DNA from: Magnetospirillum sp. WYHS-4
Lineage (GTDB): Bacteria; Pseudomonadota; Alphaproteobacteria; Rhodospirillales; GLO-3
NCBI GenBank assembly: GCA_039908345.1
Contig: JAMOBD010000015.1
Coordinates: 1-53,967, forward strand
Length of the DNA stretch: 53,967 nucleotides
Direction: 5' to 3'
The notes below the pieces were generated by a model, which saw only the letters and a program-made list of their open reading frames with translations, made no database searches and had not been told where the DNA came from. Position numbers and translations under genes: made by a program. The first letter of the stretch is position 1; every line of letters begins with the position of its first letter. Positions 11,817-40,016 of this stretch are shown in pieces.

Positions 11817-12200
11817 TCACCGCCCGCAGAGTCGCTTGTACAACTGCCAGGGCGTGAAGACCCAGGGGGCCCTGAGACCCAGCGCTCTCTTTACCGCCTC
11901 GACGCAGGTATAAGGTCGCCAAGGGGCTGGAATTCGCGGGGCTTCGCCGGCCGGGGCGGGAACCACTCGGTAGCCCTTCTCGGCGAACCAGCAGGCCAGA
12001 TCCGCCGCCGGCCGGTCGGCCAGAACCTGAATCTCGGTCCAGTGGCTCAAGGGGTTGTAGACGACCCAGTGTCCCTGCCGTCGCAGAACCACGAAGCAGT
12101 GCCGGAAGCCGGGCCGCAGCAGCCGCAAACCCTTCAAATCGGCCTGGCCGGCGAAGACCACCAGGGCGAGCGAGTCGATTCGAGGGTTGTCCGGTATCAC
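11817..12200 (-). CDS. Unknown 127-residue protein, second gene of an SOS-type operon
   Basis: Soluble-looking protein of 127 residues. A conserved-looking core has GFRHCFVVLRRQGHWVVYNP in the middle and RPYTCVEAVKRALGL toward the end; the spaced His/Cys and Cys residues could hint at a small papain-like or NlpC-like hydrolase, or a phage-derived protein, but I cannot name a family. Its start overlaps the end of the 12197-12562 gene by four bases (ATGA), so they form an operon controlled from the LexA box at 12592. Ends nine bases from the convergent Usp gene. Confidence 0.6.
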   Translation of the reverse strand: MIPDNPRIDSLALVVFAGQADLKGLRLLRPGFRHCFVVLRRQGHWVVYNPLSHWTEIQVLADRPAADLACWFAEKGYRVVPAPAGEAPRIPAPWRPYTCVEAVKRALGLRAPWVFTPWQLYKRLCGR

Positions 12201-12562
12201 TGGACCATTCCCTTGTCCCGTAGCTTGCCGTCAAGGCGTGCCATGGCCTCATCCCACAGACGGGCCTCGCGGGCCTCTTCCTCCTCCCGTCCGTCCGGTG
12301 CCCGGTCCTTCAGGCCGAACATGGCCATGACCCGCAAATGCTCCCGGTGGAGATCGCCGTCGCGGACCATGGTCATGACGTAGCGGTAGATATCGTCGGG
12401 ATCGCACGGACGGGAATCCTTGCGGACTGCATCCCGAAAGCGCGCGCCCTCGTTTCGTGCCCGTTGGCAACGAGCGTACCAGAACCAAGCCTCCTCGCCA
12501 TCGGCAAAGGGTTCCTGCCTAATTTCAAAGTACGGCTTATATATATGTCGGAACGTAGTCAT
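12197..12562 (-). CDS. Unknown 121-residue protein, first gene of an SOS-type operon
   Basis: Starts MTTFRHIYKPYFEIRQEPFA, contains EEAWFWYARCQRARNEGARF, a DDIYRYVMTMVRDGDLHREH helix and a charged Glu/Arg stretch near the C-terminus. Trp/Tyr-rich and highly charged; no membrane segment. AGGAGG stands seven bases before the ATG, and a GTTC-N7-GTTC LexA box lies 30-44 bases upstream, the right place for repression. No family recognised; a phage origin is possible. Confidence 0.6.
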   Translation of the reverse strand: MTTFRHIYKPYFEIRQEPFADGEEAWFWYARCQRARNEGARFRDAVRKDSRPCDPDDIYRYVMTMVRDGDLHREHLRVMAMFGLKDRAPDGREEEEAREARLWDEAMARLDGKLRDKGMVQ

Positions 12563-12591
12563 CGATATCCTCCTGCCACAGCCTTTTTAAG

Positions 12592-12606
12592 GAACATCGC
12601 GCGAAC
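12592..12606 (-). promoter_or_regulatory. LexA (SOS) box
   Basis: On the minus strand it reads GTTCGCGCGATGTTC, which is exactly the alphaproteobacterial LexA consensus GTTC-N7-GTTC. It lies 30 bases upstream of the 12562 start. A further CGATGTTC at 12621-12628 is the inverted match of GAACATCG at 12592-12599 and widens the dyad toward the divergent S24 regulator gene. Confidence 0.7.
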
Positions 12607-12699
12607 ACGATCAATCTACCCGATGTTCTCTATGTGTCAAGACGATTGTAGCAAAAAGTTCCTACTGACCCCCCGCCCGATTTGTAAGACCCTGTTCCC

Positions 12700-13332
12700 A
12701 TGCTCAAGCACTCGCAAATCTGGCGTGCCATCGACCGGCTGGCCCAGGAAAAGGGCCTTACCGCCTCCGGCTTGGCCCGCCGCGCCGGCCTCGATCCGAC
12801 CACTTTCAACAAGAGCAAACGCATCACCCGCGAAGGCAAGCTGCGCTGGCCCAGCACGGAAAGTGTCGCCAAAATCCTGACCTCGACCGAAACCACCCTT
12901 GGGGAATTCGTTTCCTTCATCGGGGAAGCGGACAGTGCGGCGGTCTACAAGAACATCCCGTTGATCGGCTTCGCCCAAGCCGGCAATTCCGGCTATTTCG
13001 ACGACGCCGGCTATCCGGCGGGCGGCGGCTGGGACGAGATTCCCTTCCCCGATCTGGCCGACCCGCACGCCTACGCCCTGGAGATCAGCGGCGACAGCAT
13101 GCAGCCGGTCTTTCGCGACGGCGACATCGTCATCGTCGCGCCCTCGGCGAGCATCCGCAAGGGTGACCGGGTGGTGGTCAAGACCCGCGAGGGCGAAGTG
13201 CTGGTGAAGGAACTGCTGCGCCGTTCGATCAAGCGCATCGAGCTTCTGTCGCTCAACCGCGCCCACGAAGACCGCGTCCTGTCGGTGGACGAAGTCGACT
13301 GGATCGCCCGGGTCATCTGGGCCAGCCAATAG
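12700..13332 (+). CDS. S24-family (LexA/CI-like) transcriptional regulator
   Basis: 210 residues. The N-terminal 70 residues are an HTH of the phage-repressor type (KGLTASGLARRAGLDPTTFN). The C-terminal half is an S24 peptidase domain with the nucleophile in EISGDSMQPVFRDGD and the general-base lysine in VVVKTREGEVLVKEL. A possible self-cleavage Ala-Gly lies in FAQAGNSG. It is divergent from the two SOS-type genes, sharing a 137-base control region, and may control them alongside LexA. Not LexA itself: the HTH differs and the linker is longer. Confidence 0.85.
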   Translation: MLKHSQIWRAIDRLAQEKGLTASGLARRAGLDPTTFNKSKRITREGKLRWPSTESVAKILTSTETTLGEFVSFIGEADSAAVYKNIPLIGFAQAGNSGYFDDAGYPAGGGWDEIPFPDLADPHAYALEISGDSMQPVFRDGDIVIVAPSASIRKGDRVVVKTREGEVLVKELLRRSIKRIELLSLNRAHEDRVLSVDEVDWIARVIWASQ

Positions 13333-13398: not shown

Positions 13399-14256
13399 AT
13401 GGCGAGGGGAGTCGCGGGCAAGACCCTGGCTTATGTGGATGGGCAGTGGCGGCACGGCAATCCCTTGCTCATGGGTCCCCGGCACCATGCGGTCTGGCTG
13501 TCGTCGGTGGTCTTCGACGGCGCGCGGGCCTTTGACGGGGTGGTGCCCGACCTGCGTCTCCATTGCGCCCGGGTGGTGGCTTCGGCCCACGTCCTGGGCA
13601 TGATGCCCATGCTGACGGCGGCCGAGATCGAGGATATCGCCTGGGACGGCGTGCACCGCTTCGCGGCCGATGCCGACCTTTACATCTGTCCCATGTTTTA
13701 CGCCGAAGGGGGGTTCGTCTGGCCAGACCCGGCGACCACGCGCTTCGTTCTCACGGTCCATGAGGCGCCGTTGCCCGCCGCCGACGGCTTCAGCGCCTGC
13801 TTGTCCAGTTTCCGCCGGCCGGCCCGCGACATGGCTCCGACCGAGGCCAAGGCCTCCTGCCTCTATCCCAATATCGCGCGCATCGGCCGCGAGGCCGCCG
13901 GCAAGGGCTTCGACACGGCGGTGGTCCTCGATCCCTGCGGCAACGTGGCCGAGTTCGCCTATACCAACCTGTTCCTGGTGCGCGGCGGAGTGGTCCATAC
14001 CCCGGCGCCCAACGGGACATTTCTCAACGGCATCACCCGGCAAAGGGTCATCCGGCTGCTGCGCAAGGATGGTTTCGAGGTGATCGAGCGGGCGATCCTC
14101 TACGACGAGGTTCTGACCGCCGACGAACTGTTCGCCACCGGGAACTACGCCAAGGTCCAACCCTGCACCAGGATCGAGGCCCGGGCACTGAACATCGGGC
14201 CCGTTTACGAGCGGGCGCGCGAACTCTATTTCGCCTTTGCGCACCAGGCGCGTTAG
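13399..14256 (+). CDS. Class IV aminotransferase, branched-chain type
   Basis: 285-residue PLP enzyme of the IlvE/DAAT fold. Signals are SSVVFDGARAFDG near the N-terminus, a probable PLP lysine in APTEAKASCLYPN, VAEFAYTNLFLV, and HTPAPNGTFLNGITRQRVI (phosphate-binding region). Family members transfer amino groups between glutamate and branched-chain 2-oxo acids; some are D-amino acid transaminases or aminodeoxychorismate lyases. The length and FAEGGFVWPDP-like region favour the branched-chain group. Ends one base before the convergent lysS stop. Confidence 0.82.
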   Translation: MARGVAGKTLAYVDGQWRHGNPLLMGPRHHAVWLSSVVFDGARAFDGVVPDLRLHCARVVASAHVLGMMPMLTAAEIEDIAWDGVHRFAADADLYICPMFYAEGGFVWPDPATTRFVLTVHEAPLPAADGFSACLSSFRRPARDMAPTEAKASCLYPNIARIGREAAGKGFDTAVVLDPCGNVAEFAYTNLFLVRGGVVHTPAPNGTFLNGITRQRVIRLLRKDGFEVIERAILYDEVLTADELFATGNYAKVQPCTRIEARALNIGPVYERARELYFAFAHQAR

Positions 14257-28600: not shown

Positions 28601-29352
28601 GACTTGCCGCCGCCCGATAGAGGCTCGTTCTCGCCGCGCAGGGACGAGAAGTTGGTGCCGGTGCCGGAACCGTACTTGAACAGCCGCGCCTCGCGGACCC
28701 AAAGATCCATGATGCCGCCCTCGTTCACCAGGTCGTCACCGATGCTCTGGATGAAACAGGCGTGCGGCTGGGGATGCTCGTAGGCGGAACGGGACTTGAC
28801 CAGCTTGCCGGTGCGGAAGTCGACGTAGGAATGGCCCTGGGCCGGCCCGTCGATGCCGTAGGCCCAATGCAGGCCGGTATTGAACCACTGCGGCGAATTG
28901 GGGGCGCCCATCTGTCCGCAGAGCATGAAGCGCATCTCGTCGAAATAGGCCTGGGCGTCGGACTCGGTGTCGAAATAGCCGCCCTTCCAGCCCCAGTAGG
29001 TCCAGGTGCCGGCCATGCGGTCGAACACTTGGCGGGCGGTGGTCTCGGAGCCCGAGCGCTCGGCTTCCGGCAGTTCCTTCAAGGCCTTGTCGTCGGGCAG
29101 GCTGCGCCACAGCCAGGACGGGACGTCGTGTTCCTCATAGCGCTTCAGACGGGCGGGCACGCCGGCCTTGCGAAAGTACTTCTGGGCCAGCACGTCGCAG
29201 GCCACTTGCGACCAGCCGGCCGGCACTTCCATGGATTCCAGGCGGAAAACCACCGAACCGTCCGGATTCCGGATCTCGCTGGAAGCGTTCCTGAACGTGA
29301 AGGACTGGTAGGGGGATTCCCCTTCCCGAGTAAACAGGCGCTGAATCCGCAC
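25684..29352 (-). CDS. nrdJ: Adenosylcobalamin-dependent ribonucleotide reductase (class II)
   Basis: 1222 residues, the long alphaproteobacterial form. Reduces ribonucleotides to deoxyribonucleotides with B12 and works with or without oxygen. Seen: [41 protein letters not shown], the active-site region with [40 protein letters not shown], a DUF-type insertion, and a C-terminal zinc-finger-like [22 protein letters not shown]. Start is GTG 29352. No cobalamin riboswitch or NrdR box was recognised in the 354 bases upstream. It seems to be the only reductase in the window. Confidence 0.96.
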
Positions 29353-37967: not shown

Positions 37968-40016
37968 TCAGACGCGCTTGATGCCGGTCAGGAAGTCTTC
38001 GACCTCCTTGCGCAAGACATCGGACTCATGAAGGAGTTGGCGCGTGGCGCCCAACACCTCGGTGGCCGATTCGCCGGTATCGGTGGCTGCCTGGTTGACG
38101 CCCGCGATGTTGGAACTGACGTCTGTGGTCGCCTTCGAGGCTTCCTCGACGTTGCGGGCGATTTCGCGGGTCGCCGCGCCTTGTTCCTCGACCGCCGCCG
38201 CGATGGCGGAGGCCGCGGCACTGACATCCGAAATCGTGCGGGAGATGCCCTGGATGGCGGTCACCGCGTCGCCGGTGGCGGTCTGGATGCCGGCGATCTG
38301 GGCGCCGATCTCATCGGTGGCGCGCGCTGTCTGGTTGGCCAGGTTCTTGACTTCCGACGCCACGACGGCGAAGCCCTTGCCGGCGTCGCCGGCCCTTGCG
38401 GCCTCGATGGTGGCGTTCAAGGCCAGAAGGTTGGTCTGCTCGGCGATATCGGTGATCAGCGCGACCACTTCGCCGATCTTCTGGGCGGCGTCGGCCAGGC
38501 TCCTGACCTGGGCATTGGTGCGCTCCGCCTCCGATGCCGCGTTGGCGGCGATGGTGTTGGCCTGGTTGACCTGACGGCTGATCTCGGCGATGGAGGCCGA
38601 CAGTTCCTCGGTGGCGGCGGCGACCGTCTGCACGTTGGTCGAGGCTTCCTCGGCCGCGGCGGCCACATGGGTGGCCTGCCGGCTGGTCTCCTCGGCCGTG
38701 GCGGCCATGCCTTGGGCGGTACCTTCCATGGTGGTGGAGGCGGTCTTGACGGCTCCCAGCACCCCCGTGACGCCCTTCTCGAAGACGTTCATCAGCCGTT
38801 CCATGGCCTGGCGGCGCTGTTCCTTGGACGCTTCCTCGCGGCGCTGGTCCTCGGCCATGCGGTCGGCGGCGATGCGGTTGTCCTTGAAGATCTGGACGGC
38901 GGCGGCCATGTGGCCGATCTCGTCGCCGCGGCCGACGCCGGGAATGGCTACCGAGGTGTCGCCGCGGGCCAGTTGTCCCATCGCATCCGTCATGCCGGCG
39001 ATGGGGCCGGTGATGCCCCGCACGATGACGGCGGTCAGCGCGGCGGCGGCGGCCAGCAGGACCAGGGTGAGGGCCGAATAGAGGGTCAGGTCGCGCACGG
39101 CGGAGGAATGGATTTCCTCCACCAGCTTCTCCAGGCCGACGGCGGCCTCGTCCTCGACGGCCTTCAGCAGGTCGATCTTCTGCGTGGCGGCGGCGAACCA
39201 CTGGGGCGCCTCGACGCCCTGGACGCTGCCGGTGGCCAAGCTCTCGATGGCGACCTTGCGCATGCGTTCAACATCGTCCACGGCCTTGCCCTTGACGGTC
39301 TCGCGGAAACGCGACACCAGCTTGTCACCGGCGTACGCTTCGAAGGTGCGGAAGTAGGTCTGCTGCTCGGCGCCCCGTTCGCAGAACTGCTTGTAAAGCG
39401 CCGACGAGAAAGTGCCGGCACCGAAGCCGGCGGCGCCCAGGGCACGTTCGATGCCGGACCTCTCCTTGCCGTATAGCAGGCTGGTGTAGGCGACGATCTG
39501 TTTGGTCACCAGGGCGTCGGTGCTGAGGAGGGCGGTTTCTTCCACGATGGCCAGCAGCTTGGCAATGGTGCCTGTGTAATAGCCAGCCGAATCAGGCGGT
39601 GCGATGCCCAGGGCGGAAACCTGCCTGCGGGTATCGTCCAGCTTGCCGACGGCGGCTTCGGCATCGCGCACCTTGGCGGCGAACTGGGCGCCGTAGCGGC
39701 CAAGGTCGATGCCCTTCAGAGCCTTCTCGGCCAGGGTCCGCTTGTCGTCGGCGGTCTTGCGCTGCTTGGGCAGATCGTCCTTGAAGCTTTCGCCCTTGCT
39801 GGACAGGAAACCGGCGGACATGCCGCGTTCCTTCTGCATCTCGTGGACGAAGGCACTGATGACCGGACCGGTTGTGACCAGAGCCTCGAGCTGCCGGGTC
39901 TTGCTTTCCTCGCCCATGCGGTCGACAACCACGAGACCGGAAAATAGCAGCAGGCCCAGGATGGGCAATACCAGGGCGATGGCGATGCGCGCGCCGATGC
40001 GGACGTTGGACAGCAT
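37968..40016 (-). CDS. Methyl-accepting chemotaxis protein with NIT domain
   Basis: 682 residues from ATG 40016, with GGGGGAG close before it; a GTG at 40034 is possible. TM1 ([20 protein letters not shown]), a periplasmic NIT (nitrate/nitrite-sensing) domain of about 270 residues containing [22 protein letters not shown]2 ([20 protein letters not shown]), HAMP, and the signalling hairpin [35 protein letters not shown]. Ligand not read from sequence; nitrate or nitrite is a guess from the domain name and the neighbouring FNR-linked genes. Confidence 0.93.

Follow-up and report, generated by a model that had tools for sequence, protein, structure and literature searches.

Introduction

The genes for the gene transfer agent (GTA) RcGTA are domesticated, lie dispersed and have been passed on by vertical descent. 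For the GTA of Caulobacter crescentus, passages of the published reports describe an S24-type repressor, RogA, that acts on the activators gafYZ through the operator GGAA-N4-TTCC and is reported to lack cleavage residues (PMC9632790), an ability of GafZ to let polymerase past terminators (PMC11150451), and a natural trigger that is termed elusive (PMC13236601). For the Rhodospirillales, a single table row in PMC6821227 reads 24, 10, 0, 15, 0, 0; under the column meaning that we assume, the zeros seem to indicate that the order has no GTA-type RcGTA cluster. No description of a podovirus-derived GTA in Rhodospirillales, or of LexA control of one, was present among the literature matches listed, which comprise titles and abstract openings and cover subscription journals thinly, and a term search of the text of PMC9662315, on GTA taxonomy, and of the review PMC11841831 returned neither a podovirus-derived alphaproteobacterial GTA nor LexA.

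Here we describe a locus of Magnetospirillum sp. WYHS-4, a member of the Rhodospirillales, in which a gene for an S24-type repressor stands back to back with a two-gene operon, g1-g2, that has a LexA-type box at its promoter. We think it likely that g1-g2, together with the S24 gene and the promoter region between them, make up the regulatory head of the particle gene set of a domesticated T7-like podovirus, and that this set is most likely a GTA. As far as the passages cited above describe the Caulobacter system, the two resemble each other in having a small repressor with helix-turn-helix and S24 domains (RogA 213 aa; here 210) over a two-gene operon, in the GG-N8-CC operator geometry of RogA, which equals that of a palindrome AGG-N8-CCT found here, and in dispersed loci with leaders whose terminators suggest antitermination. 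They differ in that exact GGAA-N4-TTCC occurs in none of the 84 spacers between S24 gene and g1 that we read, in that the S24 protein here retains the cleavage residues that RogA has reportedly lost, and in that the present system has T7-like podoviral virion genes and a LexA box at the g1 promoter, GafY and GafZ being compared by description only. With the RcGTA-like GTAs (Rhodogtaviriformidae) it shares domestication, dispersal and vertical descent; the virion genes here match podoviral families, which may set them apart from the RcGTA head-tail cluster.

Results

The g1-g2 operon and its divergent S24 gene

The window, by which we mean the whole stretch of 53,967 nucleotides analysed (contig JAMOBD010000015.1), contains the features listed in Table 1. 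The first gene of the operon, g1, is preceded by AGGAGG, as expected from the strong ribosome site that an initial annotation of the sequence had assigned to it; the box GTTCGCGCGATGTTC lies 29 bases from its ATG, a TTGACA element stands 34 nt ahead of the box start, and the reading frames of g1 and g2 share 4 bases. The interval given in the initial annotation, 11817-12606, is correct for the operon and box and omits both the rest of the promoter and the S24 gene, which had rightly been described as divergent from the operon. An 8-bp inverted repeat, GAACATCG/CGATGTTC at 12592-12599 and 12621-12628, links the box with upstream sequence. No phage gene adjoins the operon in the window. One flank is a universal stress protein gene; on the opposite flank, 13399-14256 is presumably an aminotransferase gene, and 8 of the 33 loci from a first search likewise have this gene next to S24.

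Table 1. Features of the g1-g2 locus in the window, and copies of the promoter-leader element elsewhere in the same genome
Feature	Position	Strand	Basis
Putative LexA box GTTC-N7-GTTC, GTTCGCGCGATGTTC	12592-12606	minus	Sequence, conservation, word shared with lexA
g1, 121 aa, first gene of the LexA-box operon	12197-12562	minus	Open reading frame and AGGAGG
g2, 127 aa	11817-12200	minus	Open reading frame; predicted permuted papain-like fold; podoviral ancestry
S24 repressor, 210 aa, LexA/RogA-like	12700-13332	plus	Helix-turn-helix and S24 peptidase domain
Divergent promoter region S24/g1, 137 bp	12563-12699	none	Spacer sequence
-35 element TTGACA of the g1 promoter	12635-12640	minus	Sequence; same layout in orthologues
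Shared promoter-leader copies	L322:17230-17370; L330:6286-6424; L329:1039-1178		

Conservation of the LexA-type box

Counting was uninformative as to the significance of the box, the counts being no higher than chance: GTTC-N7-GTTC occurs 3 times in the window against 1.7 expected, and 67 times in the genome against 76 reversed-control words. The two other exact words in the window, at 28667-28681 and 38787-38801, are probably nothing given that expectation. We judge the box to be above chance because it is conserved at its exact spacing in orthologous promoters. From 115 g1 places in the order, 112 including the window were read, G001, G152 and G180 being dropped as fragments or contig ends (the partial matches in G180 and G152 have an internal stop and are decaying copies), and the word was sought in either orientation within 120 bp of g1. 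It is present in 40 of the 84 promoters that adjoin an S24 gene and in none of the 28 that do not, one of which has the word far out, at -207. Among the same 84 promoters, the control spacings 3-6 and 8-12 gave 0-1 occurrences, words of similar composition at spacing 7 gave none, and 100 dinucleotide shuffles gave a mean of 0.18 boxes and a maximum of 1. A search before orthologues had been proposed in the initial annotation as a check on the box, and its outcome is in favour. S24-adjacent promoters occur in 16 family codes, of which 13 are represented among the 40 boxed promoters, and in 37 of these 40 the box starts 29-37 nt past the TTGAC of the -35 element, over the -10/+1 region; the remaining 44 of the 84 are without the exact box. 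Outside the order, 6 of 20 sampled loci have it within 220 bp of g1.

The 28 loci (among L100-L205) with neither an S24-adjacent promoter nor the box belong to three family codes, f29 (22), f27 (3) and f18 (3), and their genomes retain g1-g2, with virion genes as well in most of these genomes.

The same word is found at the lexA genes of the order. Of 31 lexA loci, 26 could be scored, no start having been located in five, and 25 of the 26 have GTTC-N7-GTTC, with 0-2 at other spacings; the lexA box of the window's own genome is GAACTAAAATAGAAC. At recA of this genome there are near-misses only, with no exact box within 250 bp. Since one word is found at both the lexA and the g1 promoters of these organisms, it is their LexA box, and the claim of such a box ahead of g1 was therefore real; g1-g2 are in consequence predicted members of the SOS regulon. 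It is extremely unlikely, in our estimation, that the box is instead a chance match and the S24 protein the sole controller of the operon: exact words that are no commoner in the genome than control words would be consistent with chance, whereas a spacing kept exactly in 40 of 84 promoters and 13 of 16 family codes, a fixed place after the -35 element and an identical word at lexA argue strongly against it.

The S24 protein and a second candidate operator

The S24 protein matches PF00717 (E 3.5e-24, above cut-off) and a PHROG transcriptional repressor (E 7.9e-31), and scores 21.5 bits against HTH_26, slightly below the cut-off of 22. In an alignment of 87 S24 proteins, A94 is present in 87 and G95, S133 and K170 in 85 each. 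We take Ala94-Gly95, Ser133 and Lys170 to have the roles in self-cleavage that they would have by analogy with LexA, and since they are kept, the S24 protein may itself be a sensor of damage. The palindrome AGG-N8-CCT occurs in 29 of the 84 S24-g1 spacers, against 0-4 for other spacings, and is placed over the start of S24, about 36 bases inside, or between the -35 and -10 elements of g1. It is the probable S24 operator; the copies in the window are degenerate.

Linkage to virion genes and descent along host families

In the order, g1 has matches in 114 of 199 genomes. At the 112 places read, g1 is followed by g2 in 109, and in 84 a divergent S24 gene lies no more than 260 bp away. A capsid gene is found in 111 and a terminase gene in 97 of the 199 genomes, mostly in single copy. 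Capsid or terminase genes accompany g1 in 102 of 114 genomes, compared with 9 of 85 genomes lacking g1, a contrast that ignores kinship and leaves out five of the 111 capsid genomes, which fall below 60% identity and have no g1 (14 of 85 if they are counted). Where g1 and terminase are both present (92 genomes), they share a contig in 66 and lie within 30 kb in 59; two genomes that consist of a single contig have them at distances of 1.38 and 1.45 Mb.

Linkage extends beyond the order. In a sample of 289 genomes of the class, whose number of order-mates is not fully listed, g1 was found in 37, 35 of them from other orders, and at 20 of these 35 loci g2 was present in 19, an S24 gene in 17 and a portal gene just downstream in 11. 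The g1 relatives of G270, G389 and G482 come from genomes of only 0.9 Mb that are at least 99% complete, and the system perhaps survives in reduced genomes; G270 (L391) has a weak g2 match and neither an S24 gene nor a portal gene nearby.

These associations bear on whether the S24-g1-g2 unit could be a separate host stress module that stands before phage genes by happenstance, with g1-g2 acting alone after damage. The universal stress protein gene beside the operon, with no phage gene there, is what such a module might show, as are the 12 of 114 g1 genomes that have neither capsid nor terminase. Seven of these 12 are at least 95% complete, and g1-g2 may therefore act on their own in them, though gaps in the assembly or fragments may account for some. 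Set against this are the strength of the co-occurrence, the portal gene just downstream at 11 of 20 loci outside the order, and a g2 relative between the terminase and portal genes of a Vibrio phage (see below), and we regard the idea as very improbable. Rather than standing alone as an SOS module, the S24/g1-g2 unit precedes podoviral genes in related genomes.

The capsid tree follows the host families, with 9 host-family changes where the minimum is 8 and the mean for shuffled labels is 20, in a tree of 31 rows made by a quick method with 13 of 28 inner branches weak. For the six closest capsid pairs dN/dS is 0.02-0.21. Pairwise medians are 0.21 for capsid, 0.27 for S24, 0.44 for g1 and 0.46 for g2. 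Many of the pairs approach saturation, and the g2 value is as high as 1.39 in one of them.

Podoviral particle genes downstream of g1-g2

The related cluster L241/L324 gives the contiguous arrangement. It starts with the S24 gene, divergent from g1, g2, a small open reading frame, portal, scaffold candidate (named from its position alone) and capsid, and after the capsid gene come tail genes, a methyltransferase, the terminase, a small spanin-like protein of membrane type and an endolysin. The virion genes match podoviral families of PHROGs and Pfam: portal PF12236 (E 2.7e-141), capsid phrog_3437 (E 1.4e-69), tail phrog_376 (E 2e-145), tail fibre PF03906 of T7 (E 2.5e-6), and terminase phrog_38 (E 6.2e-78) and PF22530 of T7 (E 4.4e-6). 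The endolysin matches PF07486 (E 1.8e-20) and the spanin-like protein has a weak match to phrog_214 (E 0.008). In the Terasakiella-like cluster an extra gene, L325:4496-5140, sits between scaffold candidate and capsid; by eye we take it to resemble a glutathione S-transferase gene, in which case host genes interleave with virion genes.

That endolysin and spanin-like genes are kept beside the terminase, under control of a damage type, would also suit a particle retained for SOS-triggered lysis, the killing of rivals or protein delivery rather than for gene transfer. We consider this unlikely, as the genomes have retained terminase and capsid along with the tail, and a killer free of DNA would not need them.

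A g2 profile scan of the viral contigs of IMG/VR found 270 relatives, and among the best 80 of these 270 loci g1 is present in 68 and an S24 gene in 56. IMG/VR classes these stretches as viral, the genes for the S24 repressor, for lysis and for packaging are of phage type, and relatives of g2 occur in 49 Vibrio phage records, all of which would be in keeping with a lineage of temperate podoviruses, alive or in decay, whose clusters are prophages and whose S24-g1-g2 unit is the immunity region. Several observations count against that proposal. The genes are mostly single copy and the capsid tree tracks host families; in the window's genome the parts are spread over the chromosome (see below); and no integrase or replication family was found among the L241/L324 proteins scanned (14 against PHROGs and 10 against Pfam, from the 17.9-kb record with the exception of 12.9-14.5 kb). 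Moreover, the best 25 of 2498 phage terminase matches are 27-32% identical, as against 55-74% for most genomes of the order. Here too our assessment is of an improbable alternative.

The T7-like Vibrio phage 1.138.O (MG592509) has relatives of the portal, capsid and tail proteins at 24-30% identity. The Rhodospirillales set differs from T7-like podoviruses in being conserved along host families and in showing no replication gene among the L241/L324 proteins scanned.

Dispersed virion blocks and a shared leader in the window's genome

In the genome from which the window comes, the particle genes lie on three other contigs. C8 has the portal (71% identity), a small open reading frame and the scaffold candidate, C64 the capsid (75% identity) and a small open reading frame, and C27 the tail, fibre and terminase (68% identity), the spanin-like gene and the endolysin. 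The capsid gene is at G000:C64:5159-5977 (L330), between genes that by eye we take to be dnaA and an aminotransferase gene; given the dnaA-like neighbour, it is perhaps near the replication origin.

A promoter-leader element is common to the three blocks (74-76% identity, E 1e-17 to 5e-30; Table 1). It consists of a palindrome GAACA...TGTTC, imperfect at the capsid block, upstream of TTGAC, followed by a leader that the three have in common and by a GC hairpin and then T. A model of the element found no fourth copy in the genome, the three blocks scoring 117-126 bits by construction and the next match 19.5. In L324 and in L325/L347, too, virion blocks are preceded by a leader with a terminator hairpin, and the folding z values there are -3.0 to -4.6; for the blocks of the window's genome they are about -0.5 to -2.0, with two of the three leader RNAs folding no better than shuffles (z -0.47 and -0.61). 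In the 300-900 bp read at each of the three dispersed blocks there is no LexA box. The capsid block of family f16 has a LexA box of its own in 4 of 6 loci, compared with 0 of 24 in other families.

Because the virion genes are on three other contigs, each block behind the shared promoter, leader and terminator-like hairpin, a trans-acting factor would be needed to reach them. That such a factor may act at these leaders is suggested by analogy with the passage of GafZ past terminators, as the published passages describe it.

The g1 and g2 proteins

Neither g1 nor g2 matches a family of Pfam, NCBIfam, PHROGs or PADLOC, the last of which covers anti-phage defence and gave 0 matches for either; the initial annotation had likewise matched the 121- and 127-aa proteins to no SOS gene. 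A sequence search of the PDB gave chance matches only. For g1, an AlphaFold2 model has four predicted helices (pLDDT 83.1). The role of g1 remains a guess, as the fold search gave no notable structural match (best Z 2.4). We consider g1 unlikely to be the small terminase, because this genome has a 117-aa open reading frame directly before TerL.

The model predicted for g2 has a pLDDT of 88.7. Residues H34, C35 and C99 are invariant in an alignment of 28 sequences, and the best structural alignments, by VIA-align, are to TseH (6v98; Z 7.2, 112 aligned, rmsd 3.9) and then to a Bacillus cereus cysteine peptidase (3kw0; Z 5.3), at values of Z below 8 that may arise by chance. Both are permuted papain-like enzymes, and the invariant histidine followed by cysteine, together with these top alignments, therefore fits g2 to an enzyme of this kind. 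We accordingly regard a permuted papain-like active site as a prediction from the model. As in permuted papain-like and NlpC-P60 enzymes, the histidine precedes the cysteine and the cysteine is at a helix start; unlike them, g2 has no sequence-family match. Foldseek against the PDB gave nothing at E 0.001, with TseH and the B. cereus peptidase absent from the 50 matches listed, and family scans of the 28 g2 relatives gave stray weak matches only, in one or two of the relatives, and no Pfam match of the permuted papain type.

Viral proteins match g2 at E 1.7e-7, and Foldseek gave six matches among viral models, all unnamed or uncharacterised. In Vibrio phage 1.138.O a relative of about 30% identity lies between the terminase and portal genes, just before portal, and g2 is therefore an old podoviral gene. 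In 22.4 kb of this phage, tblastn found no relative of g1.

Discussion

The initial annotation, made without sight of the virion genes on other contigs, had taken the locus for either a new module for DNA damage or a piece of phage that has been domesticated. Both halves are now supported, by a conserved box of the lexA form and the cleavage residues of the S24 protein on the one hand and by a podovirus-derived virion set on the other. The best reading of the sequences is a podovirus-derived GTA, or a GTA-like particle, under the control of LexA and the S24 protein, for which particle formation, transfer and induction are predicted.

A working model for its control is as follows. The g1 promoter would be shut jointly by LexA, bound to the box across -10/+1, and by the S24 protein, bound to AGG-N8-CCT around the -35 element and at its own start. 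Upon damage, activated RecA would remove LexA and probably also trigger self-cleavage of the S24 protein, and loss of the two repressors would lead to transcription of g1-g2. In contiguous sets, polymerase would then have to read past the leader and its intrinsic terminator to reach the genes for virion, packaging and lysis. Where the blocks are dispersed, as in the genome of the window, a trans-acting factor would instead switch them on, and g1 is the best candidate for this factor, either as an activator or as an antiterminator. We infer that the induced particle would package host DNA, and on this model binding by LexA and the S24 protein, induction by damage and the roles of g1 and g2 are all expectations.

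With a little more confidence than doubt, we further propose that these genes represent an additional, independent GTA lineage that arose from a T7-like podovirus and is widespread and old in Alphaproteobacteria. According to this proposal, LexA boxes at the regulator operon, and in one family at the capsid block, have together with a self-cleavable S24 protein wired the lineage to the SOS response, while g1-g2 and the terminator leaders would switch the dispersed virion blocks together.

If this is correct, a LexA-boxed GTA would have a defined trigger that can be switched, and would link DNA repair with gene transfer. It would provide a GTA system for an order in which the RcGTA-type survey, by the table row of PMC6821227 and the column meaning assumed for it, seems to show none. 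Many of the 'prophages' in databases would have to be reclassified. Many alphaproteobacteria appear to retain the particle as their own, probably for packaging DNA and passing it on when the genome is damaged.
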